From positions 806,001 through 870,000 of the forward strand of contig NZ_CP059833.1 of assembly GCF_014117265.1 (NCBI RefSeq): a stretch of DNA of 64,000 nt, read 5' to 3'. Below are positions 8,948 to 21,628 of the stretch, piece by piece. The stretch is from Corynebacterium hindlerae. GTDB lineage: Bacteria > Actinomycetota > Actinomycetes > Mycobacteriales > Mycobacteriaceae. Within the stretch, counting starts at the first letter, position 1, and each line of letters opens with the position of its first letter. The notes under the pieces were generated by a model. The model was not told where the DNA came from, did no database searches, and worked only from the letters and a program-made list of their open reading frames with translations. A program made the position numbers and the translations under genes.

Positions 8948-9006
8948 GCACTCAAGGTTAGGTCAGCTTGGAGTTTCGCGCACTGGCTGTAAGGCAGTTG
9001 CGCAAC

Positions 9007-9092
9007 CCAACGTTGGCTTTTCGGACAGCCTCATCTCACGTGAGCTGCGGTTTTGCTAACAATTTCACATGGCGGGCGTCACAGTGAAATTG
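9007..9092. promoter_or_regulatory. Cluster of palindromes upstream of the transcarboxylase operon
   Basis: Three inverted repeats lie between the 5S gene start and the feoC stop: CCAACGTTGG (9007-9016), CTCACGTGAG (9035-9044) and CAATTTCAC/GTGAAATTG (9060-9068, 9084-9092). The last could also serve as a weak terminator for the feo operon on the minus strand. The first two could be regulator sites for the transcarboxylase operon. This is inference from symmetry only. Confidence 0.35.
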
Positions 9093-9154
9093 CCCATACT
9101 TGCACGAATTTCTTTGTTTGGTGTCTGCTTATGTTGTTTTTCGTGCTTGGTTTA

Positions 9155-9412
9155 CTAACCACCGCGGGTCAGCTTGAGTAATACCGGGCCCCGCGCACCC
9201 GTGGAACCACTACAGCCTGAGTTGTGAGAACAGGAACCACAGCCGGAGGTGGGACAAGAGCTTAGGCTTTCTCGCACTAATTCGCCGGTGTGTCCCATAT
9301 ACACCATGACAAGCTCGACCGTGCTGCGAGATAGTCCGCTGTGGCGCGCGATGTCAGCCACGGTGCCACAGCCAGCGCTAATCGCGGCGCGTACCAGTTC
9401 GGTGGGGGTCAT
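9155..9412 (-). CDS. feoC: FeoC-like small iron-sulfur/winged-helix protein
   Basis: 85-residue protein starting MTPTELVRAAIS. An N-terminal winged-helix-like segment (about 1-45, TVADIARHSGLSRSTVELV) is followed by a cysteine cluster with spacing C-x4-C-x2-C-x5-C (CPTSGCGSCSHNSGC). This spacing resembles the Fe-S-binding motif described for enterobacterial FeoC. The ATG overlaps the feoB stop (ATGA, 9412-9409), implying coupled translation. It is inferred to regulate or stabilise the FeoB transporter. Confidence 0.7.
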   Translation of the reverse strand: MTPTELVRAAISAGCGTVADIARHSGLSRSTVELVMVYMGHTGELVRESLSSCPTSGCGSCSHNSGCSGSTGARGPVLLKLTRGG

Positions 9413-11343
9413 AGGAACACCTTGAGGATCTGGAATGCCACGACCGCGAGGATCCACGAACCGGCGAATTGCACGGCGAAGCCGAAGAGGGTCCACTTGG
9501 CCCCAATTTCCCGGCGTTGCGCCGCAATAGTCGCCGCGCACGGGGTGTAGGAGAGCATGAAGATTATGAAGGCCCACACCGCCGCCAACGCGTGACCGCC
9601 AGAAGTGTCCTCAAAATCTTGGCGAATGTTCTTGGACAGAGCAGATTCTGCTTGTTCTTCGGGCGCTGCGTCGGTGACATCCTCCACGGCGTAGACATGT
9701 GCCCAGGTCGAAATAACCGCTTCCTTAGCCACAAATCCGGTGATGAGAGGCCCGGTCAGGCTCCACGAACCGAAACCAGCTGGTTGGAACACCGGAGAGA
9801 TTGTTTCGGAGACAACACCAAAGGCGGAATCCTGCGGTGGTACATCGGTAATATCATGATCACCGCGAACCGGGATAGCCATGAGCAGCCACACCACCAC
9901 AACGGTCGTGACGATGATGCCACCAGCGGTTTCCAGGAAGCCACGCAGTCGCTGCCAGGTGACGGAGCCCGCCATGCGGGCTGTCGGTAACTGATAGGTT
10001 GGCAGATCAATGACCAAGGCCTCGCTGGGCATAGCGCGCCACAATGTCGAGCGCAGCAGCAGGCCCGTCACCACGATCAACACGATCGATAGCACGTACA
10101 TCGCAAACACTGCGCTACCGGCATGGTCTGGGAAGAAGATCGTCGCCAGCATGAGGAACACGATCAACCGCGCCGAGCATGAGGTGAACGGAATGAGCAA
10201 CGACGTGAGGATGCGGTGGCGGGGGCTACCCAGCACGCGAGTTGCGGAGATCACGGGCACGTTGCAGCCAAAGCCGACCACGATCGGAATAAATGCTTTG
10301 CCAGGCAGGCCAATAGACTGCATCACCCGGTCTGTCACCACGGCCGCGCGGGCCATGTAACCGGAATCTTCCAGGACCGCCAGGCAAAGGAACATGAGCG
10401 CAAGCAGCGGCGCAAACGTTAGTACCATGCCGACGCTACCAATGAGGCCGTCGACAAGCAGGCCGGTCACCAACGGGTGATCCCACCCTGCCGCGGCGAG
10501 TCCGTCGGAGACTACCCCGCCGAACCAGCCGTTGATCAGCGATTCCAGACCGTCTTGCAGCGGCGCAGCCACAGTGATGGTGATCTTGAAAACCAGCCAC
10601 ATCACGCCGAGGAAGATCAGGGGACCGAGGAAGGGGCGGAGCACAACGCGGTCAATGCGCTGCGTCCAGGTTTCCCGCTCTTCGCCCTCCACGACGGCTG
10701 CCTTAACGGCATCGTCAAGGTCAGCAAAGCGCTTCTCGACGCCATCCCCCACGCGCACCTGCACCTTCGGGCGGCCTAGTTGCGCGAGCACAACCTGCTC
10801 CAGGTCTGCCAGCCCCTCAAACTTTCGACCGTTCACTACCACGGCTGGAATACCAGTGACCTCAGCGAGGCGCTGGACGTCGACGGAGATGCCCTGCGCT
10901 TGGGCCAGATCCATCTTGGTCACAGCGAGGACAATGCGATAGGGGTGCTCGGCAAGCTGAAAAGCGAGATTGAGTCCGCGTGCGGGAGCCGTAGCGTCAA
11001 CCACAACTACCGCCAGGTCGGGGCGTTCGTCCTCGGCACGCTCGATGAGCATGTCCCGGGTGAGCTCTTCATCTGGGCTGAGCGGGTCCAAGGAATAGGT
11101 TCCGGGGAAGTCGATGACATCCAACGCCATGCCATCCTGGGTTTTCCACACACCTCGGCTCACCTCAACGGAGGTCCCCGGCCAGTTGCCGGTCTTTACT
11201 TTCGCACCGGTGAGCGTGTTAAAGGTGGTGGACTTTCCTGAGTTAGGCGCGCCAATGAGCGCCACGATTGGCGACCCCTTCGGGGCTACCACGGTGGATG
11301 CTGCAGCCTGGCAGCTAGGAATGTTGGCAGGCTTGCCGCTCAC
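9409..11343 (-). CDS. feoB: Ferrous iron transporter FeoB
   Basis: 644-residue inner-membrane Fe(II) transporter with an N-terminal GTPase. G1 is GAPNSGKST (31-39), the switch threonine region TGNWPGTSV is conserved, G3 is DFPGTYSL (Asp78) and G4 is TKMD (142-145). After a helical spacer the C-terminal half has two Gate motifs (GFGCNVP and SYTPCAATI) and about eight to ten membrane segments. The start GTG overlaps the feoA stop (GTGA). The operon is feoA-feoB-feoC with DtxR control upstream. Confidence 0.96.
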   Translation of the reverse strand: MSGKPANIPSCQAAASTVVAPKGSPIVALIGAPNSGKSTTFNTLTGAKVKTGNWPGTSVEVSRGVWKTQDGMALDVIDFPGTYSLDPLSPDEELTRDMLIERAEDERPDLAVVVVDATAPARGLNLAFQLAEHPYRIVLAVTKMDLAQAQGISVDVQRLAEVTGIPAVVVNGRKFEGLADLEQVVLAQLGRPKVQVRVGDGVEKRFADLDDAVKAAVVEGEERETWTQRIDRVVLRPFLGPLIFLGVMWLVFKITITVAAPLQDGLESLINGWFGGVVSDGLAAAGWDHPLVTGLLVDGLIGSVGMVLTFAPLLALMFLCLAVLEDSGYMARAAVVTDRVMQSIGLPGKAFIPIVVGFGCNVPVISATRVLGSPRHRILTSLLIPFTSCSARLIVFLMLATIFFPDHAGSAVFAMYVLSIVLIVVTGLLLRSTLWRAMPSEALVIDLPTYQLPTARMAGSVTWQRLRGFLETAGGIIVTTVVVVWLLMAIPVRGDHDITDVPPQDSAFGVVSETISPVFQPAGFGSWSLTGPLITGFVAKEAVISTWAHVYAVEDVTDAAPEEQAESALSKNIRQDFEDTSGGHALAAVWAFIIFMLSYTPCAATIAAQRREIGAKWTLFGFAVQFAGSWILAVVAFQILKVFL

Positions 11344-11627
11344 AGCGTGACGTCGAGGTGACGGAGGGTGACGCGATCGATGGCGTATCGCGCTGTTCCA
11401 ACGGTAACGATGCGTCCGCCACCAGCAACTTTTTGGCCAAGCTTAACGCTCATGCCAGGACGGATTCCGAGTTCTTCGAGTCGCATCGCCAGCGCCGGAT
11501 CACGCTCGATCGCTCGTTCAAGGCAGCACTCTGGGAGGCTAGCGCAGCAGCCGACTGGTGCTTGGTCCGCAGAGATGCAGTCTTTACGTTCGCACTGCAC
11601 TCTGCTCTTGAGCTTGAACATGGTCAT
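11340..11627 (-). CDS. feoA: Ferrous iron transport protein FeoA with Cys-rich N-terminus
   Basis: Small SH3-like partner of FeoB, 95 residues from ATG 11627 (MTMFKLKS; ATG 11621 is also possible). The C-terminal FeoA domain (about 40-95) shows LEELGIRPGMSVKLGQKVAGG and the final LRHLDV. Unusually for this family, the N-terminal 38 residues hold six cysteines (12, 17, 27, 28, 34, 35). It overlaps feoB by four bases. A DtxR box lies about 55 bp upstream of the start. Confidence 0.85.
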   Translation of the reverse strand: MTMFKLKSRVQCERKDCISADQAPVGCCASLPECCLERAIERDPALAMRLEELGIRPGMSVKLGQKVAGGGRIVTVGTARYAIDRVTLRHLDVTL

Positions 11628-11682
11628 TACCGTTACTGCTGTACTTCCCCGGGAGAGTTTCTTAGGTCCCCCTACCCTCATC

Positions 11683-11701
11683 TTGGTAAGCCTTACCTTA
11701 A
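11683..11701. promoter_or_regulatory. DtxR iron box of the feo operon
   Basis: The 19-mer TTGGTAAGCCTTACCTTAA closely fits the DtxR/IdeR consensus TWAGGTWAGSCTWACCTWA, with both half-sites symmetric. It lies directly upstream of feoA, so iron-loaded DtxR is predicted to repress feoABC. Confidence 0.82.
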
Positions 11702-11777
11702 ACTGTAAGCGGGGGAAGACAATGAGTAAGGCGCTAAAAATCCCCTTATAGCCCCTGTTCTTCAGGACCGGCTCGCG

Positions 11778-12710
11778 CTATCCCAACATCCGGGCCCGGA
11801 ACACTCGGGGTGCTTCCCCAAATTCAGCCTTGAACACTCGAGAAAAGTGCGAGGGCTCATGAAAGCCATACTGACTACTAATGTGATGAATCGATTCTGT
11901 CGCGTGGGCAGGGTCAGCGAGGTCATTTTTCACCCGCTCCAGCCGCCGGCCCCGAATATATGCCGCGACCGTGACCCCTTGAGTAGCAAACTGCGCATGC
12001 AGGTGTCGCACGCTCACGAACAGCGCAGCTGCAATCATGCCCGGCGAAAGGTCTGCATCATGGAGATTCTGCTCAATAAAAGCTGTCGCTTGCCTAAAGA
12101 GGAGATTGGCAGTTCCAGATTCCAGCTCAGCAGCATATTCCGAAGAAAACACGGAGATCAACATGTTCAACGCCGACCGCACTAAAGCTTCAGCATGTTC
12201 CCCGTCGAGCACATCAATATTGGTGGCTAGCTGCTCGAACATCGGGATGGCCACCCTCCCCAGTCCCGAGCAGCGAGAAATAGGAGAGGCGGTGAGTGCT
12301 TCAATCTGGTTGGGCGTGAAATTCAAATAGCGCTGCGGAAAATACACCACCAGCGTGTGCTGGGGTTGCTCGTACACCAACTCATAAGGCCGCTGGGTAA
12401 CGTACAGAGCCAGGTCCCCCGGATGCAGGACGCAGGTTCGCCCGTCCTGCGTCATCGCAGAGGAGCCTTCAAGTTGCAAGCTGAGCTTACAGAACGGCTC
12501 ACGGTCCATACCGATGGATTCGCTTGTCCTGCGAACAGTATGGGGCGACGTGATCATGTCAAAGAGGGCAATCTCCCCTAAGGTTGCCGCCGACATGCGC
12601 GCCGAGAACGCTCCGCCAGGGGCGCTCCTGATATCCATCTTTCCAAAGTGCGAGGTCACCGCACTGCGCCACTGGGCGAGGGTAAATTCTTCCGACATTG
12701 GTGGTGTCAT
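11778..12710 (-). CDS. AraC-family transcriptional regulator
   Basis: About 310 residues (ATG 12710, MTPPMSEEF; 12719 and 12698 are alternatives). The N-terminal two thirds is a cupin-like ligand/dimer domain of the AraC_binding_2 type (FALYVT-like strand LHPGDLALYVTQRPYEL). The C-terminal 100 residues carry two helix-turn-helix motifs (SPGMIAAALFVSVRHLHAQF and ESIHHISSQYGFHEPSHFSR followed by FKAEFGEAPRVFR). It is divergent from the aldehyde dehydrogenase operon with about 130 bp between starts, so it very likely controls that operon, probably in response to an aromatic amino acid or its product. Confidence 0.88.
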   Translation of the reverse strand: MTPPMSEEFTLAQWRSAVTSHFGKMDIRSAPGGAFSARMSAATLGEIALFDMITSPHTVRRTSESIGMDREPFCKLSLQLEGSSAMTQDGRTCVLHPGDLALYVTQRPYELVYEQPQHTLVVYFPQRYLNFTPNQIEALTASPISRCSGLGRVAIPMFEQLATNIDVLDGEHAEALVRSALNMLISVFSSEYAAELESGTANLLFRQATAFIEQNLHDADLSPGMIAAALFVSVRHLHAQFATQGVTVAAYIRGRRLERVKNDLADPAHATESIHHISSQYGFHEPSHFSRVFKAEFGEAPRVFRARMLG

Positions 12711-12731
12711 GCCCACCATCTTAAAGTGACG

Positions 12732-12764
12732 CAGCGCACATTTAAAGCCAAATTGCGTGCACTG
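12732..12764. promoter_or_regulatory. Candidate operator between araC-type gene and aldehyde dehydrogenase operon
   Basis: Imperfect inverted repeat with left half CAGCGCACATTT and right half AAATTGCGTGCACTG, about 33 bp overall, in the middle of the divergent intergenic region. It is a plausible AraC-type binding site; there is no independent support. Confidence 0.35.
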
Positions 12765-12840
12765 AAAGTCAACTCCTATCGCTGTGATCGGGGCAACATT
12801 GGGGAACGTTCTGTCGTTTGTCCCCCCAAAGGAGGCACTC

Positions 12841-14241
12841 ATGTCTGACTTTTCAGCGCTGCTCGAGTCCGTCGTCACCAGCGAAGGCCAGGAAATCTTC
12901 AACCCAGCTACCGGAGAATCCCTCGGTTGTTGCCCAGTAGGCACTCCCGCTGATGTCGATGCCGCAGTCGCACGCGCCCGCGCTGCCGCTCCGGGCTTGG
13001 CCCAACTCAGCCATGAAGAGCGCAGCGAACTGCTCATGCGCGCCGCTGATGCCATCGAGGCAAAGGCCGAAGCCCTCGCGGAACTGCTCTCCCGGGAACA
13101 GGGCAAACCCCTCAATGGCCCGAACGCCCGCTTTGAAGTCGGTGCCTGTGCCGGGTGGCTGCGCGCCACCGCGTCCTTCGATTCGCCGGACTATGTCGCA
13201 GTTGACGCCGATGTCACCGCGACCGTGACCTACAAACCACTCGGTGTGGTCGGGGCGATCGGCCCATGGAACTGGCCCATGATGATTACCATCTGGCAAA
13301 TTGCTCCGGCAGTTCGTATGGGCAACACGGTCGTCGTTAAGCCGTCGGAATACACCCCGCTGTCTGTGCTCGCTCTGGTGAAAACCATCAACGAAGTCCT
13401 CCCTCAGGACGTCGTGCAGGTAGTCACGGGCGGTGGTGACGTTGGAGCTGCCCTCTCGACGCACGCTGGCATTGACAAGCTCATGTTTACCGGCTCTACC
13501 GCCACCGGCAAGAAGATCGTCTCTGCATCTGCGGAAGGCCTCACGCCACTCACGCTGGAGCTCGGCGGCAACGACGCCGGCATCGTCCTCGACGACGCCG
13601 ACCCAGCAGCCATCGCCGGCGACCTCTTCTGGGGCGCCTTCATTAACACCGGCCAGACCTGCGCAGCGATGAAGCGCCTTTACGTTCCAGCCTCGCTTTA
13701 CGACGCCGTATGCGACGCACTCCTCGCCGTAGCCGAAGCCTCCCCCATGGGTGTCGGACTCGACGAAAACAACGTCCTCGGCCCGCTGCAGAACAAGGCC
13801 CAGTTCGACATCGTCGACGGCTTGGTGAAAGAAGCCGTCGCCTCAGGTGCGCGCGTCCTGACCGGAGCCAACCCTGATTACGAGGCACCCGGCTACTTCT
13901 ACCCCACCACCCTCATCGCAGACATTGACCCAGAGAATCCATTGGTCACCGAGGAGCAGTTCGGCCCGGCGCTGCCGATCATCAAGTACACCGATCTGGA
14001 TTGGGCCATCGAACAGGCCAACTCTCTGGATGTGGGACTGGGGTCGTCCGTGTGGTCATCAGATCGTGACCGCGCCCTGGGAGTAGCAAGCCGACTGGAA
14101 GCGGGTACTACCTGGATCAACTCTCATGGCGCAGTGGATCCTCGGGTGCCGTTCGGTGGCATCAAATCCTCCGGTTACGGCGTCGAATTCGGCACCGAAG
14201 GCCTCAAGGGTCTGGCTTATCCACACATCATCAACGGCTAA
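12841..14241 (+). CDS. NAD(P)-dependent aldehyde dehydrogenase
   Basis: 466-residue ALDH-superfamily enzyme that oxidises an aldehyde to the acid. The catalytic pair is present: Glu240 in LELGGNDAG and Cys274 in NTGQTCAAMKR, the usual 34 residues apart. The cofactor-site motif PWNWPMM and the FGGIKSSGYG motif near the C-terminus are also there. ATG 12841 follows a strong AGGAGG. It is the first gene of a four-gene operon. Given its neighbours the likely substrate is indole-3-acetaldehyde or phenylacetaldehyde, giving the arylacetic acid. A general succinate-semialdehyde-like activity is the alternative. Confidence 0.9.
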   Translation: MSDFSALLESVVTSEGQEIFNPATGESLGCCPVGTPADVDAAVARARAAAPGLAQLSHEERSELLMRAADAIEAKAEALAELLSREQGKPLNGPNARFEVGACAGWLRATASFDSPDYVAVDADVTATVTYKPLGVVGAIGPWNWPMMITIWQIAPAVRMGNTVVVKPSEYTPLSVLALVKTINEVLPQDVVQVVTGGGDVGAALSTHAGIDKLMFTGSTATGKKIVSASAEGLTPLTLELGGNDAGIVLDDADPAAIAGDLFWGAFINTGQTCAAMKRLYVPASLYDAVCDALLAVAEASPMGVGLDENNVLGPLQNKAQFDIVDGLVKEAVASGARVLTGANPDYEAPGYFYPTTLIADIDPENPLVTEEQFGPALPIIKYTDLDWAIEQANSLDVGLGSSVWSSDRDRALGVASRLEAGTTWINSHGAVDPRVPFGGIKSSGYGVEFGTEGLKGLAYPHIING

Positions 14242-14250
14242 GGAGGGATC

Positions 14251-15642
14251 TTGACCATTACTGCTCCAGATAAAGAATTCCTGCACCAGGATGACGGTCT
14301 GCATCGCGGAATGAAGTCCCGCCATCTGCAGATGATCTCGTTCGGCTCCGCCATTGGCACTGGCCTCTTCCTCGGTTCTGGTGCATCAATCCAGCAAGCT
14401 GGCCCGAGCGTGGTGTTGGCTTTCGCCATCGGCGGATTCATCATCTACTTGATCATGCGCATGCTGGGCGAAATGGCCGTTGAGCACCCCGTATCGGGTT
14501 CTTTCAGCGCATATGCACGCCATTACATTGGCCCCCGCGCAGGGTTTATCACCGGCTGGAACTGGTGGTTCACCACCATCGTGGTGGGGATGCTGGAACT
14601 GACGGCAGCGGGTACCATCATGGACTTTTGGTTCCCAGAACTACCGCACTGGGTGACAGCGCTGGTGACCCTGCTGGTGGTTACCGCTATTAATTTGGTG
14701 CATGTGGGGGCGTTCGCCGAGGCTGAGTTCTGGCTATCCTTCATCAAGGTCGCAGCTCTTATCCTCATGATTGTGGTCGGGGCTGCAATCGTATTGGGCC
14801 TGACTCCAGAACCTGCCCTGGGTATGAAAAACATCACCGAAAATGGCGGTATTTTCCCTAACGGTGCGGTTGGAGTCCTGTTCTCGTTAGTCGCTGTGAT
14901 TTTCGCCTTCGGTGGCATCGAGTCCATCGGCACCGCGGCGGGCGAAACCCAAGACCCAGCAAAGACTTTGCCCAACGCCATCAACTCCGTCATCTGGCGT
15001 ATTTTGATTTTCTACATCGGTGGCATGTCAATCATCGTCCTGCTGGCGCCGTGGAATCAGTTGGATACCGCCACCTCACCATTCGTGCGTGCACTAACCA
15101 CAATCGGTATCTCCGGTGCAGCTACCGGGCTCAACCTCATCGTGCTAGTCGCCGCGCTGTCTGTGTTTAACACCATGACGTTCTCCGGCACCCGTATGCT
15201 TCGGGACCTGTCGCTCGGTGGCCAAGCACCACCGTTCTTCTCGGCAACTACCAAGAAGGGCGTGCCGCTGCGGGCCTTGTTGTTTAATGCCGGACTGATG
15301 GGCACCGCCGTGCTGCTCAACTACCTGTTCGAAGGCAAACTGCTCATGGTCTTCATCGCCATCATCGTGGGCGCTGAACTAATTTCCTGGTCGGCCATCG
15401 CCATCGCACACTGGAAATTCCGTAAGGAATACGCCATTAAAGGTAAGTCCTCCGCGTACCGCGCTCCCTTGTTCCCCATCGCAAACATGCTGTGCCTGGC
15501 GTTCTTCGCCATGATTGTCGTGTTGATGGCTTTCCTCCCCGACTATCGGATGGGTGTCGTCGCACTTCCACTCTGGATTTTGCTCCTCGGTGTGATCTGG
15601 GCGGGTAAACAAGCACACGAAAAGCGCCAAACGACTAACTAG
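14251..15642 (+). CDS. Amino acid permease (APC superfamily, AAT type)
   Basis: 463-residue proton-coupled amino acid importer with about 12 membrane helices. The N-terminal family motif is clear: RHLQMISFGSAIGTGLFLGSG (helix 1 break) and FIIYLIMRMLGEMAVEHPVSGSF. The start is TTG 14251 preceded by AGGAGGG, 9 bp after the aldehyde dehydrogenase stop. Position between degradation genes suggests that it brings in the substrate of the pathway, most likely an aromatic amino acid. Related permeases carry aromatic amino acids, GABA or proline, so specificity is inferred from context. Confidence 0.9.
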   Translation: MTITAPDKEFLHQDDGLHRGMKSRHLQMISFGSAIGTGLFLGSGASIQQAGPSVVLAFAIGGFIIYLIMRMLGEMAVEHPVSGSFSAYARHYIGPRAGFITGWNWWFTTIVVGMLELTAAGTIMDFWFPELPHWVTALVTLLVVTAINLVHVGAFAEAEFWLSFIKVAALILMIVVGAAIVLGLTPEPALGMKNITENGGIFPNGAVGVLFSLVAVIFAFGGIESIGTAAGETQDPAKTLPNAINSVIWRILIFYIGGMSIIVLLAPWNQLDTATSPFVRALTTIGISGAATGLNLIVLVAALSVFNTMTFSGTRMLRDLSLGGQAPPFFSATTKKGVPLRALLFNAGLMGTAVLLNYLFEGKLLMVFIAIIVGAELISWSAIAIAHWKFRKEYAIKGKSSAYRAPLFPIANMLCLAFFAMIVVLMAFLPDYRMGVVALPLWILLLGVIWAGKQAHEKRQTTN

Positions 15643-15661
15643 AAAAGGACACTGATTCTTC

Positions 15662-17332
15662 ATGCAGACCACCGTGGGTGAATTCATCCTCGATCGACTC
15701 AAAGCTATTGGCATTTCCGAGATCATCGGCGTGCCAGGCGACTTCAACCTCAGCTTCCTCGAGCAGGTAAAGGAAACCCCTGGTATCCGATTTGTTGGTA
15801 GCTGTAACGAGCTCAACGCGGCTTACGCAGCTGATGGCTATGCTCGCCAGCGTGGTGTTGGCTGTCTGCTCACTACCTATGGTGTGGGCGAGTTGTCCGC
15901 GCTCAACGGAATTGCTGGTGCCCGAGCTGAGCATGTACCCGTGGTGTCTCTTGCAGGTGCGCCGCCGTTGTATGCCACCGAGTATCGGTGGGCGATGCAC
16001 CATTCTCTAGCGGATGGCGATTACGCGAACATGCTCGAAGCTATCGCACCTTTTACGGAAATCTCATGTCGTGTCACCCCAATGAACGTGGTGGAGGAGT
16101 TTGACCGGGCGCTGCACACCTGTCTGCGCGAAAAGCGGCCGGTGCACATTCAGATCCCTTCTGACATCACCCACCTCACCATTGAGGTTCCTGACCAGCC
16201 ATTTTCCACGGATTTGGCCATCTCCGACAAGGAGCGCTTGGAAGCTGCCACCGCAGCTGTGCTGCGACGCTTCGAGGAAGCCACCGATCCGATCATCTTG
16301 ATCGACCAGGACACCGACCGCCACGGTTTCACGGAAAAGTTCCGACGGATCATCGACAAGGCCCAGGTGCCGTACTCCCAGCTCTCCTCCGGAAAGGCCA
16401 TCCTTTCCGAGCGCGACCCACTGTTCATCGGCACGTACAACGGCAACGCCTCCGCACCGGGTGTGAAGGAACGCGTGGAAAACTGCGACTTCCTGGTCAC
16501 CACGAATCCACGCTTCATCGAGGTCAACTCCGGGTCCTACACCCACGAGCTCCCCGAGGAACACATCATCAACTTCGGCGATCAGCATGCCAACGTCGGC
16601 GGAGAGTTCTTCGTTGGCATTAATACGCTGGAGCTTCTCGACGCCATTGCCGACCAGATCCCGGCCGCTGAGCAATCCGCGGCCGCGCCATACGAAGAGG
16701 CAGCAGTGGACGTCGATAAGCAGGCGCCTCTCACTCATGCCCGCATGTGGCCGCAGATGGTCAGCCACATCGGGGAAGGTGACGTGGTGATCGCAGAGGC
16801 GGGCACCTCCAACATCGGCCTCGGGCCGCTCCACTTCCCCGAGGGGGTGCAGTACATTAACTCGCCGATTTGGGGCTCAATTGGTTTCACCCTGCCTGCG
16901 CTGCTCGGCTCGATGTTGGCTGCCCCGGAGCGTCGGCACGTGCTGTTTATCGGCGACGGGTCCTTCCAACTCACAGCTCAGGAGCTTTCCACTATCCTGC
17001 GAGAGGACCTCAAACCGCTCATCGTGCTGGTCAATAACAAGGGCTACACCATCGAGCGCTTCATCCTCGGTATGGAGGAGGACTACAATGACATCCAAGA
17101 CTGGTCCTACAATGAACTACCTAAGGTGTTCAAGCGAGATACCACCATGCAGTCCTACAGTGCCCGCACTGAAGGGGAACTGGAGGACGCACTGAACCAG
17201 ATCAAGGCATCCGATGCCGGAGCGTTCCTGGAAGTGCACCTCGATCCCTTCGACGCACCACGTGGGCTGCAGGTGTTCGGCCCGCTGACCGCCGACTTTG
17301 ACTACGGCCCACGCGGCCCACGCAACCCGTAA
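15662..17332 (+). CDS. ipdC: Thiamine-diphosphate 2-keto acid decarboxylase (indolepyruvate/phenylpyruvate type)
   Basis: 556-residue ThDP enzyme of the pyruvate/indolepyruvate decarboxylase family. Active-site residues typical of decarboxylases are present: Asp27 (VPGDFNL), Glu50 (CNELNAAY) and the His113-His114 pair (WAMHHSLADGD) that separates decarboxylases from acetolactate synthases. The ThDP/Mg motif runs from GDGS (431-434) to NN (458-459). It is third in the operon, 19 bp after the permease. With an aromatic aminotransferase downstream, the expected reaction is indole-3-pyruvate (or phenylpyruvate) to the aldehyde plus CO2. A branched-chain keto acid or pyruvate substrate is possible. 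Confidence 0.88.
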   Translation: MQTTVGEFILDRLKAIGISEIIGVPGDFNLSFLEQVKETPGIRFVGSCNELNAAYAADGYARQRGVGCLLTTYGVGELSALNGIAGARAEHVPVVSLAGAPPLYATEYRWAMHHSLADGDYANMLEAIAPFTEISCRVTPMNVVEEFDRALHTCLREKRPVHIQIPSDITHLTIEVPDQPFSTDLAISDKERLEAATAAVLRRFEEATDPIILIDQDTDRHGFTEKFRRIIDKAQVPYSQLSSGKAILSERDPLFIGTYNGNASAPGVKERVENCDFLVTTNPRFIEVNSGSYTHELPEEHIINFGDQHANVGGEFFVGINTLELLDAIADQIPAAEQSAAAPYEEAAVDVDKQAPLTHARMWPQMVSHIGEGDVVIAEAGTSNIGLGPLHFPEGVQYINSPIWGSIGFTLPALLGSMLAAPERRHVLFIGDGSFQLTAQELSTILREDLKPLIVLVNNKGYTIERFILGMEEDYNDIQDWSYNELPKVFKRDTTMQSYSARTEGELEDALNQIKASDAGAFLEVHLDPFDAPRGLQVFGPLTADFDYGPRGPRNP

Positions 17333-17347
17333 CGTAAGGAGCTGTTC

Positions 17348-18400
17348 ATGATCCGACCTGACCTTGCCTCGCTGCCTGTCTACGTCCCAGGCAAGCGCCA
17401 CCCAGGGGCAGTCAAGCTCTCTTCCAACGAAACGACGCAACCGCCGCTTGCCGACGCCGTAACCGCCATGACCACTGCCGCAGCGTCGCTCCACCGCTAC
17501 CCCGATATGGGAGCGGTACAGCTGCGCACCGACCTCGCCTCGCACCTTGGCCTAACACTCGAACAGGTCGCCGTGGGGACCGGGTCCTCCGCCCTGTGCC
17601 AGCAGCTGGTCCAGATCACCTGCGGCGCCGGGGACGACGTCGTATTCCCCTGGCGTTCCTTCGAGGCATACCCACTCTTTGCCCAGGTAGTCGGCGCAAA
17701 CCCAGTGGCTGTGCCACTTACCGCCGAGCAAGGCGTGGACCTGCCAGCCATGGCGGCCGCCATCACCGACCGCACTCGGCTGATCTTCGTGTGCAACCCC
17801 AACAACCCCACTGGAACAACCGTCACCACGGCAGAATTCCGTGATTTCCTCGACGCCGTCCCCTCCGACGTCATCGTGGCCCTCGACGAAGCCTACTTCG
17901 AATACAACAATGCCACCGATACGCCCGTCGCCACCGACTTCCTGGAATCACACCCCAACGTCATCGGGCTGCGCACCTTCTCCAAGGCCTACAGCCTCGC
18001 CGGCGCCCGCGTCGGCTACGCTTTCGGCGCCACGGAGATAATAGAAGCGCTCAACAAGGTTGCGATCCCCTTTTCCGTGAACGCCGTCGCCCAGGCAGGC
18101 GCCGTCGCCTCCCTCAAAGCACGCGACCAACTGGACGAACGTATCGCGCACACCGTCACCTCCCGCGAACGCATCGCCCGGGAACTCGCCCCCTACGGTG
18201 CCCTGGAATCCGAAGCCAACTTCGTATGGATCCCCGCGGCCGGGCTCGCTTCGCTTGGAACCGGGCCACTCGAACTTGCCGACAAGCTCGCCGACGCCGG
18301 CGTCCTCGTCCGTGCCTTCCCAGAAGGCATTCGCATCACGGCCACCACAGATGAAGAAACCGACGCGTTTCTCACCGCATGGAAAACCGTGATTGAATAA
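17348..18400 (+). CDS. Aromatic amino acid / histidinol-phosphate-type aminotransferase
   Basis: 350-residue fold-type I PLP enzyme of the HisC/aromatic aminotransferase subfamily. PLP lysine is Lys213 in FSKAYSLAGARVGYAF; CNPNNPTGTT and LDEAYFEY hold the other PLP contacts. It is last in the operon, 15 bp after the decarboxylase, and is followed by a terminator. Similar corynebacterial enzymes (AroT/Pat) transaminate aromatic keto acids. Location suggests it deaminates Trp, Phe or Tyr to the keto acid used by the decarboxylase. A housekeeping hisC is less likely because no his genes are near. Confidence 0.85.
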   Translation: MIRPDLASLPVYVPGKRHPGAVKLSSNETTQPPLADAVTAMTTAAASLHRYPDMGAVQLRTDLASHLGLTLEQVAVGTGSSALCQQLVQITCGAGDDVVFPWRSFEAYPLFAQVVGANPVAVPLTAEQGVDLPAMAAAITDRTRLIFVCNPNNPTGTTVTTAEFRDFLDAVPSDVIVALDEAYFEYNNATDTPVATDFLESHPNVIGLRTFSKAYSLAGARVGYAFGATEIIEALNKVAIPFSVNAVAQAGAVASLKARDQLDERIAHTVTSRERIARELAPYGALESEANFVWIPAAGLASLGTGPLELADKLADAGVLVRAFPEGIRITATTDEETDAFLTAWKTVIE

Positions 18401-18417
18401 CGCACCTCAGCTGGATA

Positions 18418-18457
18418 CAGCCCCCTTCGAGAATTTTTCGACGGGGGCTGCTTTGGT
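18418..18457 (+). terminator. Terminator of the aromatic catabolic operon
   Basis: Stem CAGCCCCCTTCGA / TCGACGGGGGCTG with one bulge, followed by CTTTGGTTGTTTG, starting 17 bp after the aminotransferase stop. Confidence 0.75.
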
Positions 18458-18581
18458 TGTTTGTGGGTTAAGTATTTCCGCTTTCCTCGGTAACGCCTGG
18501 TCAAGGGGCATAACTATATTGCGTTGGGGCTTTGGGGTGTTGGCCCCGACATTGCTTCCCGGTGGGGTGATTTTGCTTTCT

Positions 18582-18655
18582 CCCCGACATTACCCTCCCG
18601 AAGTTCGGGGTCGTCGCAACGATTTTGGGGCAACCTCGGGGGCGTAATGTCGGGG
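18582..18655 (+). repeat. 74-bp palindromic repeat, copy 1
   Basis: Begins CCCCGACATTACCCTCCCGA and ends TCGGGGGCGTAATGTCGGGG, forming a stem of about 20 bp with one mismatch. The inside holds CCCGAAGTTCGGG and a small hairpin TCGT-cgca-ACGA. A partial left end (18544-18560) and a partial right end (18677-18697) flank it. The whole gap 18458-18741 between the convergent aminotransferase and sucD genes is made of this material. Confidence 0.85.
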
Positions 18656-18676
18656 TCGTGGCTCCGGCCCACCAAT

Positions 18677-18697
18677 CTCGGGGGCGTAATGTCGGGG
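18677..18697 (+). repeat. Half copy (right end) of the 74-bp repeat
   Basis: Repeats the right arm CTCGGGGGCGTAATGTCGGG after a 21-bp spacer. It probably pairs with the degenerate left arm at 18544 (CCCCGACATTGC), nesting the full copy inside. Confidence 0.75.
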
Positions 18698-18741
18698 TCA
18701 ACGCCGCCAACACACCCCCAAAAACCACAATCCCCAATCAA

Positions 18742-19626
18742 CTATTGGGCTAGTAGCTCCCGCATGAGTGCTGCTGCTTGTGATGGTGTTTTGCCGACTT
18801 TCACCCCAGCAGCTTCAAGGGCGACTTGTTTGCCTGCGGCGGTTCCGGCGCTGCCGGAGACGATTGCTCCCGCGTGCCCCATGGTTTTTCCTTCGGGGGC
18901 GGTGAAGCCAGCGATGTAGGCGACTACTGGTTTGGTGACGTGTTCTTTGATGTAGGCTGCTGCGTGCTCTTCCGCGTCACCGCCGATTTCGCCGATCATG
19001 ATGATGGCTTCGGTGTCGGGGTCGTTTTGAAACTGCTCGATGACGCCGATGTGGGTGGTGCCGATGATCGGATCTCCGCCGATACCGACGCAGGTGGAGA
19101 AGCCGATGTCGGAGAGTTCGTACATCATCTGGTAAGTGAGGGTGCCGGATTTGGATACGAGCCCGATTCGCCCTGGGTTGGGGGCGGTTTCGGCTGGGAT
19201 GATGCCGGCGTTGGATTTGCCTGGGCTGATGATTCCGGGGCAGTTAGGTCCGATCAGGCGGGTGCCGGATTCTTTGGCGAGGGCGTGGAATTCGGCGGTG
19301 TCTTTGACTGGGATGCCTTCGGTGATGACGATGCACAGCGGGATTTCTGCCCGGATCGCTTCTTCCACTGCGTCTTTCGTGAAAGCGGCGGGGACGAAGA
19401 TGACGGTGGTGTCTGCCCCGGTGGCGCGCATTGCTTCGCGGACGGATCCGAAGACAGGGATGGTGACGTCGTTGTCGAAGGTGACGCTGCTGCCGGCACG
19501 TTTCGGGTTCACGCCACCTACGATGTTGGAGCCGGAGTTGAGCATCCGTTGGGTATGCTTTTGACCTTCGGATCCGGTCATGCCTTGGACGATGATTTTC
19601 GAGTTTTCGTTAAGGAAGATTGCCAT
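18742..19626 (-). CDS. sucD: Succinyl-CoA synthetase alpha subunit
   Basis: 294-residue subunit that carries CoA binding and the phospho-histidine of succinyl-CoA ligase in the TCA cycle. Visible are the CoA-binding fold start ([19 protein letters not shown]), [11 protein letters not shown] and the active-site His in [14 protein letters not shown]. It starts 17 bp after the sucC stop and is co-transcribed with it. It converges with the aromatic operon across the 74-bp repeat cluster. Confidence 0.97.
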
Positions 19627-19642
19627 GTCAGTTGCCCCTTTT

Positions 19643-20818
19643 TTATTGCGATGCCAGTTCGGCCGCGCGGTGGGCGGCGTCGTCCATGGAGTCTGCTTGT
19701 TCGAGTTTCGGGAGGTTGGCGTCGGAAAGTATGCTTCGTCCCAATTCTGCGTTGTTGCCGTCGAGGCGCACGACCAGCGGTTTCGGTTCGATGCCTTCGG
19801 AGGCGAGGATGCGGAACGCTTGGACGATGCCTTTGGCTACTTCGTCGCAGGCGGTGATTCCACCGAAAACGTTGACGAATACTGATTTGACCTGGGCGTC
19901 GCCGAGGATCACTTCAAGGCCGTTGGCCATCACTTCGGCGTTGGCGCCGCCACCGATGTCGAGGAAGTTCGCAGGCCGCGGCTGGCCGGGTAGTTCTTCG
20001 CCGGCGTAGGCGACCACGTCGAGGGTGGACATCACCAGGCCGGCACCGTTGCCAATGACGCCGACATTACCGTCAAGCTTGACGTAGTTGAGCCCCATTT
20101 TCTGCGCTTTGAGCTCCAGCGGGTCAGTTGCGCCATGGTCCTCCAGCGCTGCGTGGTCGGGGTGGCGGTAGGCGGCGTTGTCATCGAGGGTGACTTTGCC
20201 ATCCAGTGCCACGATGTCGCCGGAACCGGTTTTGACCAAGGGGTTGACCTCGACGAGGGTGGCGTCTTCGGCGGTGTAGACGTGGTAGAGGCGTTTGAGG
20301 ACGGGCACCAGCTTGTCGACGTCCACTGCATCAAATCCAGCTTCCCTAGCCATCTCACGTGCCAGGGTGTCCGTCATGCCATCCAACGGTGAGAAGTTCC
20401 GCTTGACCAGCGCTTCTGGCCGCTCCTTGGCCAGGGTTTCGATATCCACCCCGCCTTCCTTAGACAGCATCGCCAGGTAGCGGCGTTTGGTGCGGTCCAA
20501 GAGGATGGAGAAGTAGTACTCCTCGGCAATGTCAGCACCTTCCGCGACCATCACCTTCCGAACCGTGTGACCTTTAATTTTGAGTCCGAGGATGTCGTCT
20601 GCCACCTGTCCAGCCTCTGCTGGGCTATGCGCGAGCTTTACGCCACCAGCTTTACCGCGTCCGCCCACTTTTACTTGGGCTTTGACCACCACAACTGGGG
20701 TTGCCAGTTTCGCTGCAGCGTGTTCCGCTTGGATCGGGCTCGTGGCCACAATGCCGCACAGGACGGGGACGCCATGCTTTTCAAAGAGATCTCGAGCTTG
20801 GTACTCGTAAAGATCCAC
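19643..20818 (-). CDS. sucC: Succinyl-CoA synthetase beta subunit
   Basis: 391-residue ATP-grasp subunit that binds nucleotide and succinate. It begins [19 protein letters not shown] and contains [23 protein letters not shown] and [10 protein letters not shown], with [15 protein letters not shown] near the C-terminus, all typical of SucC. First gene of sucCD, with a 165-bp AT-rich upstream region (20819-20983) that should hold the promoter. Succinyl-CoA made or used here links directly to the methylmalonyl-CoA chemistry of the transcarboxylase operon. Confidence 0.97.
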
Positions 20819-20983
20819 TGTGAGTCTCCATTTCAGTCAATAATCAATACCCCACATTGATATATGACTTGCCTCACAGATAACAAGGTGGTCAATTTAC
20901 ATCACTTTGCATAATTCACAAACACAGCGTAACAGCAAATCTTTTTGCAAAGGTCAACACCCCCGCTGTTTACCCCCTATTTC

Positions 20984-21628
20984 CTAATGGATTAATGGCG
21001 GGAGCAGAAAGGCCATCCCGACTCCCCAGGTGAGGTGGAGAGCCGTTGCCGAAACTAGATTTCCCGCACGCCGAGCTTCGAAAGTAGCTATCCCACCCAC
21101 CAACAACGCTGCAACAATTAATAGCGGAACCCCCATCGCCATAGTGACCAGCAAGTAGATTCCTACCTGCACAATCACAGATCTTTGCCCTGGAAGAACG
21201 TTGTCAAGGTGTCGTTGCACCACATCCCTGAAAAACATCTCTTCACCCACACCATTGACCACCAAGGTGATCAACGTCAACAGCACCGTTCCTGTCCGCA
21301 TATTATCTAGGAGGTCGCTGACCGGACCCGCTAGAACTGGAATCATCCTCACAGCCATAGCTCCTGCCATGAAAAAGACAATCAGCAGGCTTCCCACCAG
21401 CACCCCACGGGTGACACCGGAAAGGCCCTCCCGATAGGCATCACGGTTTCCGTAGCGCCACCACGTAACCAACCAGACTGCCGCGGTGAAGAAGGTACCA
21501 GCATAAAAGCCTGTGGAAGCTGGGGGTGACTGCGCAGCGAAGAACAACCCAGACGCGCCCAGCGTGGCGGGAAAAACGACTTGCCACAGGGCTGGTCGCT
21601 GCAAAAAAGAGGTAGTCGGTGAGGGCAT
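20984..21628 (-). CDS. CPBP-family intramembrane metalloprotease
   Basis: 214-residue membrane protein (ATG 21628, MPSPTTSFLQR) with about six helices. The CPBP/Abi signature is present: EEMFFRDVVQR (EExxxR) and a later conserved His in SATALHLTWG. Family members cleave prenylated peptides or process bacteriocin-like peptides; no specific partner is evident here. It is divergent from the SDR–TspO gene with a 109-bp gap. It stands alone on its strand. Confidence 0.8.
   Translation of the reverse strand: MPSPTTSFLQRPALWQVVFPATLGASGLFFAAQSPPASTGFYAGTFFTAAVWLVTWWRYGNRDAYREGLSGVTRGVLVGSLLIVFFMAGAMAVRMIPVLAGPVSDLLDNMRTGTVLLTLITLVVNGVGEEMFFRDVVQRHLDNVLPGQRSVIVQVGIYLLVTMAMGVPLLIVAALLVGGIATFEARRAGNLVSATALHLTWGVGMAFLLPPLIH

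Follow-up and report, generated by a model that had tools for sequence, protein, structure and literature searches.

In Escherichia coli, phenylethylamine is handled by the FeaR-FeaB-TynA system, in which an AraC-type regulator lies beside an aryl-acetaldehyde dehydrogenase. Gram-positive bacteria break down tyrosine via 4-hydroxyphenylacetate and homoprotocatechuate (HPC) to pyruvate and succinate, a route attributed to Sparnins and Chapman (1976) in excerpts of PMC3534580 and PMC2991359. For Arthrobacter arilaitensis, the excerpted account anticipated two enzymes, a 4-hydroxyphenylpyruvate oxidase and a 4-hydroxyphenylacetate 3-monooxygenase, but could place neither in the genome (PMC2991359). 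In Acinetobacter baumannii, ipdC (DJ41_1670) takes part in indole-3-acetic acid (IAA) production according to an excerpt of PMC12609611 (citing Lin 2018), which also names an aldehyde dehydrogenase, DJ41_1668. In searches of the open-licence PMC literature, we found no assignment of the genes described below in Corynebacterium.

We analysed a 64,000-nucleotide stretch of Corynebacterium hindlerae DNA (the window), in which a divergent AraC-type regulator fronts four closely spaced genes (Table 1), as a preliminary description had reported. Its intergenic gaps of 9, 19 and 15 bp were exact and its four genes are real, but their true order is aldehyde dehydrogenase (ALDH), permease, 2-keto acid decarboxylase (KDC) and aminotransferase, not the one it listed. 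Family matches together with conservation in relatives exclude chance, and the operon is thus real. Where a terminator had been placed there is indeed a hairpin, with a weak T-tract and no entry in the terminator-scan list. A sigma-70 scan of the region returned 3 sites against 3.5 expected.

Table 1 Features of the operon and its divergent regulator, in window coordinates.
Feature	Position	Strand	Remarks
AraC-family regulator, FeaR-like	11778-12716	-	start 12716, 12710 or 12698 (probable)
Putative regulator binding site, tandem GCAC-N9-CAA / GCAC-N7-CAA	12736-12772	+	
Aldehyde dehydrogenase (ALDH)	12841-14241	+	ATG 12841 behind AAAGGAGG; 466 aa
Amino acid permease, AroP/PheP group	14251-15642	+	TTG start
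ThDP-dependent 2-keto acid decarboxylase (KDC)	15662-17332	+	
Aromatic (Pat/AroT-type) aminotransferase	17348-18400	+	
Terminator-like hairpin	18408-18459	+	-33.4 kcal/mol, z -4.8

The residues named earlier were all present. The ALDH (PF00171, 457 bits) carries Glu240 and Cys274 and reached no NCBIfam cut-off in the 25 top-scoring of 44 matched families. The aminotransferase, with its PLP lysine at Lys213, scored 496.8 bits against NF002878 (PRK03321; cut-off 374) and barely passed the HisC model TIGR01141 (277.6 versus 276.55); the closest other match in its own genome is 34% identical. In the KDC, three domains (PF02776, PF00205 and PF02775), the His113-His114 pair, which we take to be a family mark, and Glu50 and Glu465, presumably catalytic, establish membership of the ThDP-dependent 2-keto acid decarboxylase family (PDC/IPDC/KDC). 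The permease matched AroP (NF007594, 418 bits) and PheP (NF007602, 425 bits) below their cut-offs of 848 and 851, respectively.

The same genome holds an HPC cluster 0.57 Mb from the operon, in which HpaD (432.6 bits), HpaE (659.8) and HpaH (366.6) all exceed their cut-offs, as expected of the Gram-positive pathway. HpaI (TIGR02311, 306.7 versus 368.8) and HpaG (TIGR02303, 164.3 versus 276.4) fall under theirs and lie inside the cluster, which further holds an FAH-RraA fusion, an SSADH, an MHS transporter and a monooxygenase. PaaA and PaaC are also encoded in the genome. Arylacetates, the products of phenylalanine included, can therefore probably be consumed by this organism. The earlier view of the operon as self-contained is not supported, and neither is IAA or phenylacetic acid as its likely end product or as a host signal.

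With gene content, order, conservation and genomic linkage as observed, we consider it probable that the operon forms the upper, Ehrlich-type half of aromatic amino acid catabolism, with tyrosine as main substrate and phenylalanine as a second use; substrates, flux and the regulator's ligand are predicted from sequence. The permease would import the amino acid, the aminotransferase would convert tyrosine to 4-hydroxyphenylpyruvate, the KDC, a proposed 4-hydroxyphenylpyruvate decarboxylase, would yield 4-hydroxyphenylacetaldehyde, and the ALDH, a proposed (4-hydroxy)phenylacetaldehyde dehydrogenase, would yield 4-hydroxyphenylacetate. A distant flavin monooxygenase of the phenol-hydroxylase type would then probably form HPC, which HpaD, HpaE, the HpaG-like protein, HpaH, HpaI and SSADH would take to pyruvate and succinate. 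Phenylalanine would likely pass, as a side use, to phenylacetate and the Paa pathway. An Ehrlich-type route for aromatic amino acids that has a regulator and a permease to itself, as first described, is supported.

Genus-wide surveys point in the same direction. Across 201 Corynebacterium genomes, one per species and drawn from a larger group, HpaD was found in 26/35 genomes with the KDC and in 19/166 others (p=1.8e-13, a statistic that ignores kinship among these non-independent genomes). Group-B decarboxylases, 31-40% identical and present in 23 genomes, were tallied on their own and are not part of these KDC counts, and the HpaD counts omit G040 and G147, which have only sub-cut-off matches. 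The link held both in genomes with PaaA (21/23 versus 10/27) and in those without (5/12 versus 9/139). HpaD lies no more than 20 kb from the ALDH in 25/33 genomes carrying both, and no more than 20 kb from the KDC in 8/26. In related species the regulator-ALDH pair, sometimes joined by the KDC, sits inside the HPC ring-cleavage cluster: HpaI is followed directly by the KDC in two genomes (G170 and G029), and in two others (G121 and G171) hpa genes adjoin FeaR-ALDH-(AT-KDC-Perm). These genomic associations put 4-hydroxyphenylacetate first. HpaD is absent from 9 of the 35 KDC genomes, 7 of which lack PaaA as well, so the enzyme is not tied to the HPC route. Also against the tyrosine reading, the operon is far from the hpa genes in its own genome (0.57 Mb), and no copy of the hpa-cluster palindrome occurs on either strand of the window.

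The second choice, that phenylalanine is the main substrate and runs through phenylpyruvate, phenylacetaldehyde and phenylacetate into the Paa pathway, appears unlikely. Beyond the PaaA and PaaC genes themselves, the best PDB sequence match of the aminotransferase is a putative phenylalanine aminotransferase (4r2n, 333 bits), and PheP is the permease's closest family. KDC and PaaA are associated overall (OR 9.9), but not significantly within HpaD strata (p=0.057 and 0.30). Among HpaD-positive genomes the ALDH itself tracks PaaA (28/33 versus 3/12, p=3.3e-4), and group-B decarboxylases also lean to HpaD genomes (11/23 versus 34/178, p=0.006), so co-occurrence is not specific to this KDC, which weighs against the tyrosine reading. 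PaaA, placed in 49 of 50 genomes (G046, with matches in pieces, was omitted), lies at most 60 kb from the ALDH in 16/29 genomes with both; at 20 kb the counts are 4/29 for the ALDH and 1/22 for the KDC, compared with 25/33 and 8/26 for HpaD. A further point against the tyrosine reading is that the hpa and paa genes are often within tens of kb of one another.

The preliminary description favoured an indole-3-pyruvate route to IAA, secreted or acting on a host, or to phenylacetic acid. The top NCBIfam match of the KDC is indeed indolepyruvate decarboxylase (TIGR03393), at 456.5 bits far under the cut-off of 946. Compared with the indolepyruvate decarboxylases of Klebsiella and Enterobacter, it belongs to the same enzyme family and is 38% identical to K. 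aerogenes ipdC, but reads DQGTSAFG where the K. aerogenes protein has EAGTSNIG. Aligned at what we take to be the specificity positions of yeast PDC, KdcA and Enterobacter IPDC, the two pockets appear to differ; position 384, Asn in the window KDC, is polar in 36/36 corynebacterial sequences of its clade. In a tree of 33 rows, which held 21 of the 36 group-A corynebacterial sequences and several long-branched comparators, K. aerogenes ipdC grouped with 4/5 group-B corynebacterial KDCs (support 100/98), while the window KDC fell outside, in a separate clade (98/96).

The A. baumannii work speaks in favour of this reading. Its ipdC primer, from the excerpt of PMC12609611, matches with one mismatch an A. 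baumannii locus (L118) where ALDH, KDC and permease are likewise clustered (48%, 44% and 42% identical to ours), but in another order and with a KDC described there as an IAA gene. The window's aminotransferase and regulator had no match at E 1e-10 in the 19.7 kb of sequence covered at this locus. Given the sub-cut-off score, the separate clade and the linkage of the operon genes to ring-cleavage catabolism, we demoted IAA or aryl-hydrocarbon-receptor signalling as the main role and judge an IAA-producing route improbable; IAA could be a by-product of the operon.

The hydroxylation step was sought in the same genome. No HpaB-type 4-hydroxyphenylacetate hydroxylase (PF11794) was found there; a PRK08294-type (phenol-hydroxylase-type) monooxygenase adjoins the HPC cluster (957.6 versus a cut-off of 560), with a 3-hydroxybenzoate hydroxylase as its best PDB match. 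From position and family, our guess is that it may be the 4-hydroxyphenylacetate hydroxylase. Such a monooxygenase lies within 10 kb of HpaD in 41/45 HpaD genomes, the exceptions being G119 (53% complete) and G191, G193 and G198, which probably lie outside the 189 genomes of this survey; this suggests a monohydroxylated substrate.

The regulator (PF14525 and PF12833) has FeaR (NF007243) as its best NCBIfam match in a profile search, at 164.3 bits against a cut-off of 199. Its longest reading frame (11778-13169) overlaps the ALDH and extends far past the start of the family, and we therefore preferred the starts given in Table 1. Divergent FeaR-ALDH pairs recur in many relatives, and we treat the protein as FeaR-like because of its position beside the ALDH and, in relatives, beside an amine oxidase. 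As in the E. coli system, an AraC-type regulator accompanies an ALDH, and an amine oxidase joins them at 13 loci of relatives; unlike it, that oxidase is flavin-type, and here the pair is fused to an amino acid route. The regulator probably senses an aryl-acetaldehyde, an arylethylamine or a related compound.

The putative site is the sole match to its pattern in the window (0 in 100 shuffles). It recurs in 20/31 FeaR-ALDH intergenic sequences (19/30 with L099 and L113 counted as one locus), which hold 20 of the 21 matches on both strands of 2.6 Mb, statistics that are partly circular because the pattern was read off these same sequences. The remaining match (L063) lies just upstream of a flavin amine oxidase-permease pair. 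Catecholamine or DOPA breakdown, with FeaR-ALDH serving dopamine or tyramine and KDC-aminotransferase serving DOPA, so that HPC arises directly without a hydroxylase, would fit this match, the missing HpaB and the amine oxidase and permease adjoining FeaR-ALDH at those 13 loci (best PDB match 8eef, 586 bits, which we take to be a dopamine-converting enzyme from C. ammoniagenes), but is the least credible reading given the monooxygenase that accompanies HpaD.

Returning to tyrosine breakdown, the operon resembles two fused halves in its gene order. A PucR-type regulator separates them in a relative and was not found here. From the one site, the FeaR-like regulator would turn on all four genes. 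More tentatively, and with rather less than even confidence, we propose that the clade of this KDC forms a family dedicated to decarboxylating 4-hydroxyphenylpyruvate and marked by polar residue 384, and that this family, the ALDH and the monooxygenase of the phenol-hydroxylase type would jointly supply the missing middle steps of Gram-positive tyrosine breakdown via HPC; in C. hindlerae, loss of the PucR-type regulator gene would have fused two transcription units, placing the tyrosine route under a FeaR-like arylamine or aldehyde sensor in one operon for amino acid and possibly amine catabolism.

The operon had also been called a single transferable unit. Typed flanks (FeoB, pyruvate-carboxylase-type, succinyl-CoA ligase-type and TspO/NmrA-type; 7 proteins, 2 without a match) include no mobility gene, but the five-gene block has other neighbours in G045, suggesting that it moves or rearranges as one. 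For neighbourhoods in relatives we relied on a homology-based map, cruder longest-ORF strings containing some antisense artefacts.

If the tyrosine reading is true, a pathway cited to 1976 would gain candidate genes, with KDC plus ALDH and the monooxygenase standing where the excerpted Arthrobacter genome paper (PMC2991359) left two enzymes unlocated. HpaD or PaaA also occurs in 28/35 KDC genomes, which cautions against reading auxin or host signalling into 'indolepyruvate decarboxylase' annotations. In keeping with the tyrosine reading, C. striatum is the positive species in tyrosine hydrolysis and phenylacetate assimilation tests. Both tests separate it from C. amycolatum (excerpts of PMC2660704 and PMC5573724) and would be tied to defined genes: in C. 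striatum ATCC 6940 (L005, the same as G051), the KDC, hpa, monooxygenase and PaaA genes are all present.

On sequence evidence, the aldehyde dehydrogenase (ALDH), permease (Perm), 2-keto acid decarboxylase (KDC) and aminotransferase (AT) genes, which follow one another in that order behind a divergent FeaR-like regulator, make up a genuine module that is conserved, probably catabolic and, in this fused arrangement, rare, with tyrosine the likely first substrate, phenylalanine the second and indole the third. The window covers positions 806001-870000 of contig 1 in a 2.68-Mb genome of two contigs. The intergenic gaps of 9, 19 and 15 bp given in the preliminary description were exact on recheck, and the catalytic residues quoted there were all confirmed in the translated genes. 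The operon has the GC content of the surrounding DNA; its typed flanking proteins include FeoB to one side and, to the other, two of succinyl-CoA ligase type. Elements with CCCCGACATT and GGGGGCGTAATGTCGGGGTC recur directly behind the operon and may belong to a family of intergenic repeats.

Locations and composition of the features discussed
Feature	Location	Strand	Details
FeaR-like regulator	window, 11778-12716 (start 12716, 12710 or 12698)	-	
Tandem motif	window, 12736-12772		sole occurrence in window; 68 bp upstream of ALDH start
ALDH	window, 12841-14241	+	
Perm	window, 14251-15642	+	
KDC	window, 15662-17332	+	
AT	window, 17348-18400	+	
Repeated elements	window, 18530-18710		
Homoprotocatechuate (HPC) set	own genome, C1 1.397-1.408 Mb		SSADH, HpaI, HpaH, HpaD, HpaE
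HPC set, further members	own genome, C1 1.397-1.408 Mb		GntR regulator, FAH-RraA fusion protein, MHS transporter, flavin monooxygenase (633 residues; C1 1406071-1407972)
Amine oxidase loci of relatives			L056, L060, L062, L063, L073, L074, L076, L078, L079, L080, L082, L105, L106
KDC-AT open frame, C. phoceense (genome G138)	loci L007/L097, ~7.0-9.6 kb		853 codons; KDC match stops at residue 528, AT match starts at residue 44

AT exceeded the NF002878 cut-off (497 versus 374), its nearest solved sequence being a putative phenylalanine aminotransferase, and KDC carries the complete ThDP decarboxylase domain set. KDC reached 456 bits against the indolepyruvate decarboxylase family, under the cut-off of 946; the families nearest to the permease (PheP and AroP) and to the regulator (FeaR) likewise matched below their cut-offs. 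The family names by themselves therefore do not decide the substrate.

We surveyed 201 Corynebacterium genomes, our own among them. KDC was present at 60-100% identity in 35, ALDH in 45, HpaD over cut-off in 45 and the phenylacetate pathway marker PaaA in 50, while AT was near-universal (196); HpaB exceeded its cut-off in 11 of the 201, and was not found over cut-off in our genome. Of the 35 genomes carrying KDC, 14 have Perm, KDC and AT in an unbroken run and a further nine have KDC-AT without that permease; permease-aminotransferase pairs without KDC exist too (for example, loci L085-L089). Two genomes, our own (G000) and G045, show the exact window order, in which FeaR and ALDH come first. 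The neighbours of the G045 five-gene block (locus L036) differ from those in window positions 9000-21000, so the whole block has moved or undergone rearrangement in one piece.

The surroundings of FeaR-ALDH in many relatives contain HpaE, HpaD, HpaH, HpaI and SSADH. HpaI is followed directly by KDC in genomes G170 and G029, and hpa genes flank both FeaR-ALDH and AT-KDC-Perm in G121 and G171. Among genomes with both genes, HpaD lies within 20 kb of ALDH in 25/33 and of KDC in 8/26, against a chance expectation of ~1.5% per genome. PaaA lies that close to ALDH in 4/29 and to KDC in 1/22. It is nevertheless often found at a greater distance, no more than 60 kb from ALDH in 16/29; in our genome it is 84 kb from HpaD. 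At 13 fetched loci, FeaR-ALDH is accompanied by a flavin amine oxidase and an amine permease, and five of these loci also have hpa genes nearby in that stretch. The arrangement resembles a cluster for degrading tyramine or catecholamines.

In 41 of the 45 HpaD genomes, the flavin monooxygenase was found no more than 10 kb from HpaD; of the other four, three probably fall outside the smaller monooxygenase search sample and the fourth is 53% complete. In our genome the palindrome ATCGTATATNAT stands upstream of the hpa genes and again upstream of the monooxygenase, which suggests a single regulon; it may be the site of the GntR protein.

In association tests, which count genomes singly and ignore shared ancestry, HpaD was present in 26/35 KDC genomes versus 19/166 others (odds ratio 22, p=1.8e-13). 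This was so in PaaA-positive genomes (21/23 with KDC versus 10/27 without) and PaaA-negative genomes (5/12 versus 9/139), and the ALDH-HpaD association also held in both strata (p=1e-9 and 0.008). The overall odds ratio for KDC with PaaA was 9.9, but on stratifying by HpaD p was 0.057 and 0.30. However, several results count against an HpaD-centred reading: ALDH associates with PaaA among HpaD-positive genomes (28/33 versus 3/12, p=3.3e-4); group-B decarboxylases, 31-40% identical corynebacterial proteins counted apart, also favour HpaD genomes (odds ratio 3.9, p=0.006); and nine KDC genomes (G009, G014, G015, G046, G084, G110, G131, G138 and G168) have no HpaD, seven of which likewise have no PaaA.

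A tandem motif with fixed spacing is common to 20 of 31 FeaR-ALDH intergenic regions, two of which (L099 and L113) are one locus, and its exact pattern is absent from 11; the single match elsewhere is upstream of an amine permease-oxidase pair in locus L063. In many other KDC genomes, a divergent regulator, typed as PucR from one representative, precedes the Perm/KDC genes. Of the fetched loci, 18 contain GACATATGTC, which the window lacks. Searching the 201 genomes at E 1e-30 recovered the PucR-type regulator in 23, all with KDC (p=8.5e-22), and did not find it in G000 or G045. In G171 this gene lies between Perm and ALDH, so its loss would yield the window order, which may have arisen in this way.

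The preliminary description read the operon as a likely producer of indole-3-acetic acid or phenylacetic acid. In favour of the indole product, ipdC of A. baumannii, in a cassette of the same type, is described as an indole-3-acetic acid gene in the available text of PMC12609611, and such a pathway is proposed in that of PMC3527336. (The A. baumannii locus, L118, comes from a 4.09-Mb record filed as a plasmid, whose size suggests a mislabelled chromosome.) In a 33-row tree, the window KDC sits among the corynebacterial proteins of its own type (group A), joined next by sequences from Halomonas and Salinisphaera (57-58% identical) as well as from Caballeronia and A. baumannii. Separate from these are K. 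aerogenes ipdC, five group-B corynebacterial sequences and the proteins of S. epidermidis and Gluconobacter, deeper placement being unsure because several comparators outside the window clade are long-branched. Position 384 presumably forms part of the substrate pocket, judging by PDC and IPDC structures. Among the 36 corynebacterial group-A sequences (three re-fetched copies excluded) it is Asn in 27, His in 5, Ser in 3 and Thr in 1. It is also Asn in Halomonas, Salinisphaera and A. baumannii, and Ala, Phe or Trp in the remaining comparators, the Caballeronia alignment not being clear here. A polar residue at this position would suit a phenolic substrate.

C. striatum is positive for tyrosine hydrolysis and phenylacetate assimilation, and its strain ATCC 6940 (L005, genome G051) carries KDC, hpa, monooxygenase and PaaA genes. 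These two tests aid its separation from C. amycolatum, according to the accessible portions of PMC2660704 and PMC5573724; on tyrosine tests, the accessible portion of PMC9963754 mentions tyrosine arylamidase only. Tyrosine and 4-hydroxyphenylacetate both support growth of Arthrobacter Rue61a, an HPC route having been proposed (PMC3534580).

The operon AT is the sole Pat-type copy found in its own genome (next best match, 34% identical), whereas a search at E 1e-70 gives two aminotransferase matches in 13 of the 35 KDC genomes; here, a presumed biosynthetic enzyme would therefore come under catabolic control. In C. phoceense, KDC and AT share one open frame, either a naturally fused protein or the outcome of a deletion that kept the reading frame.
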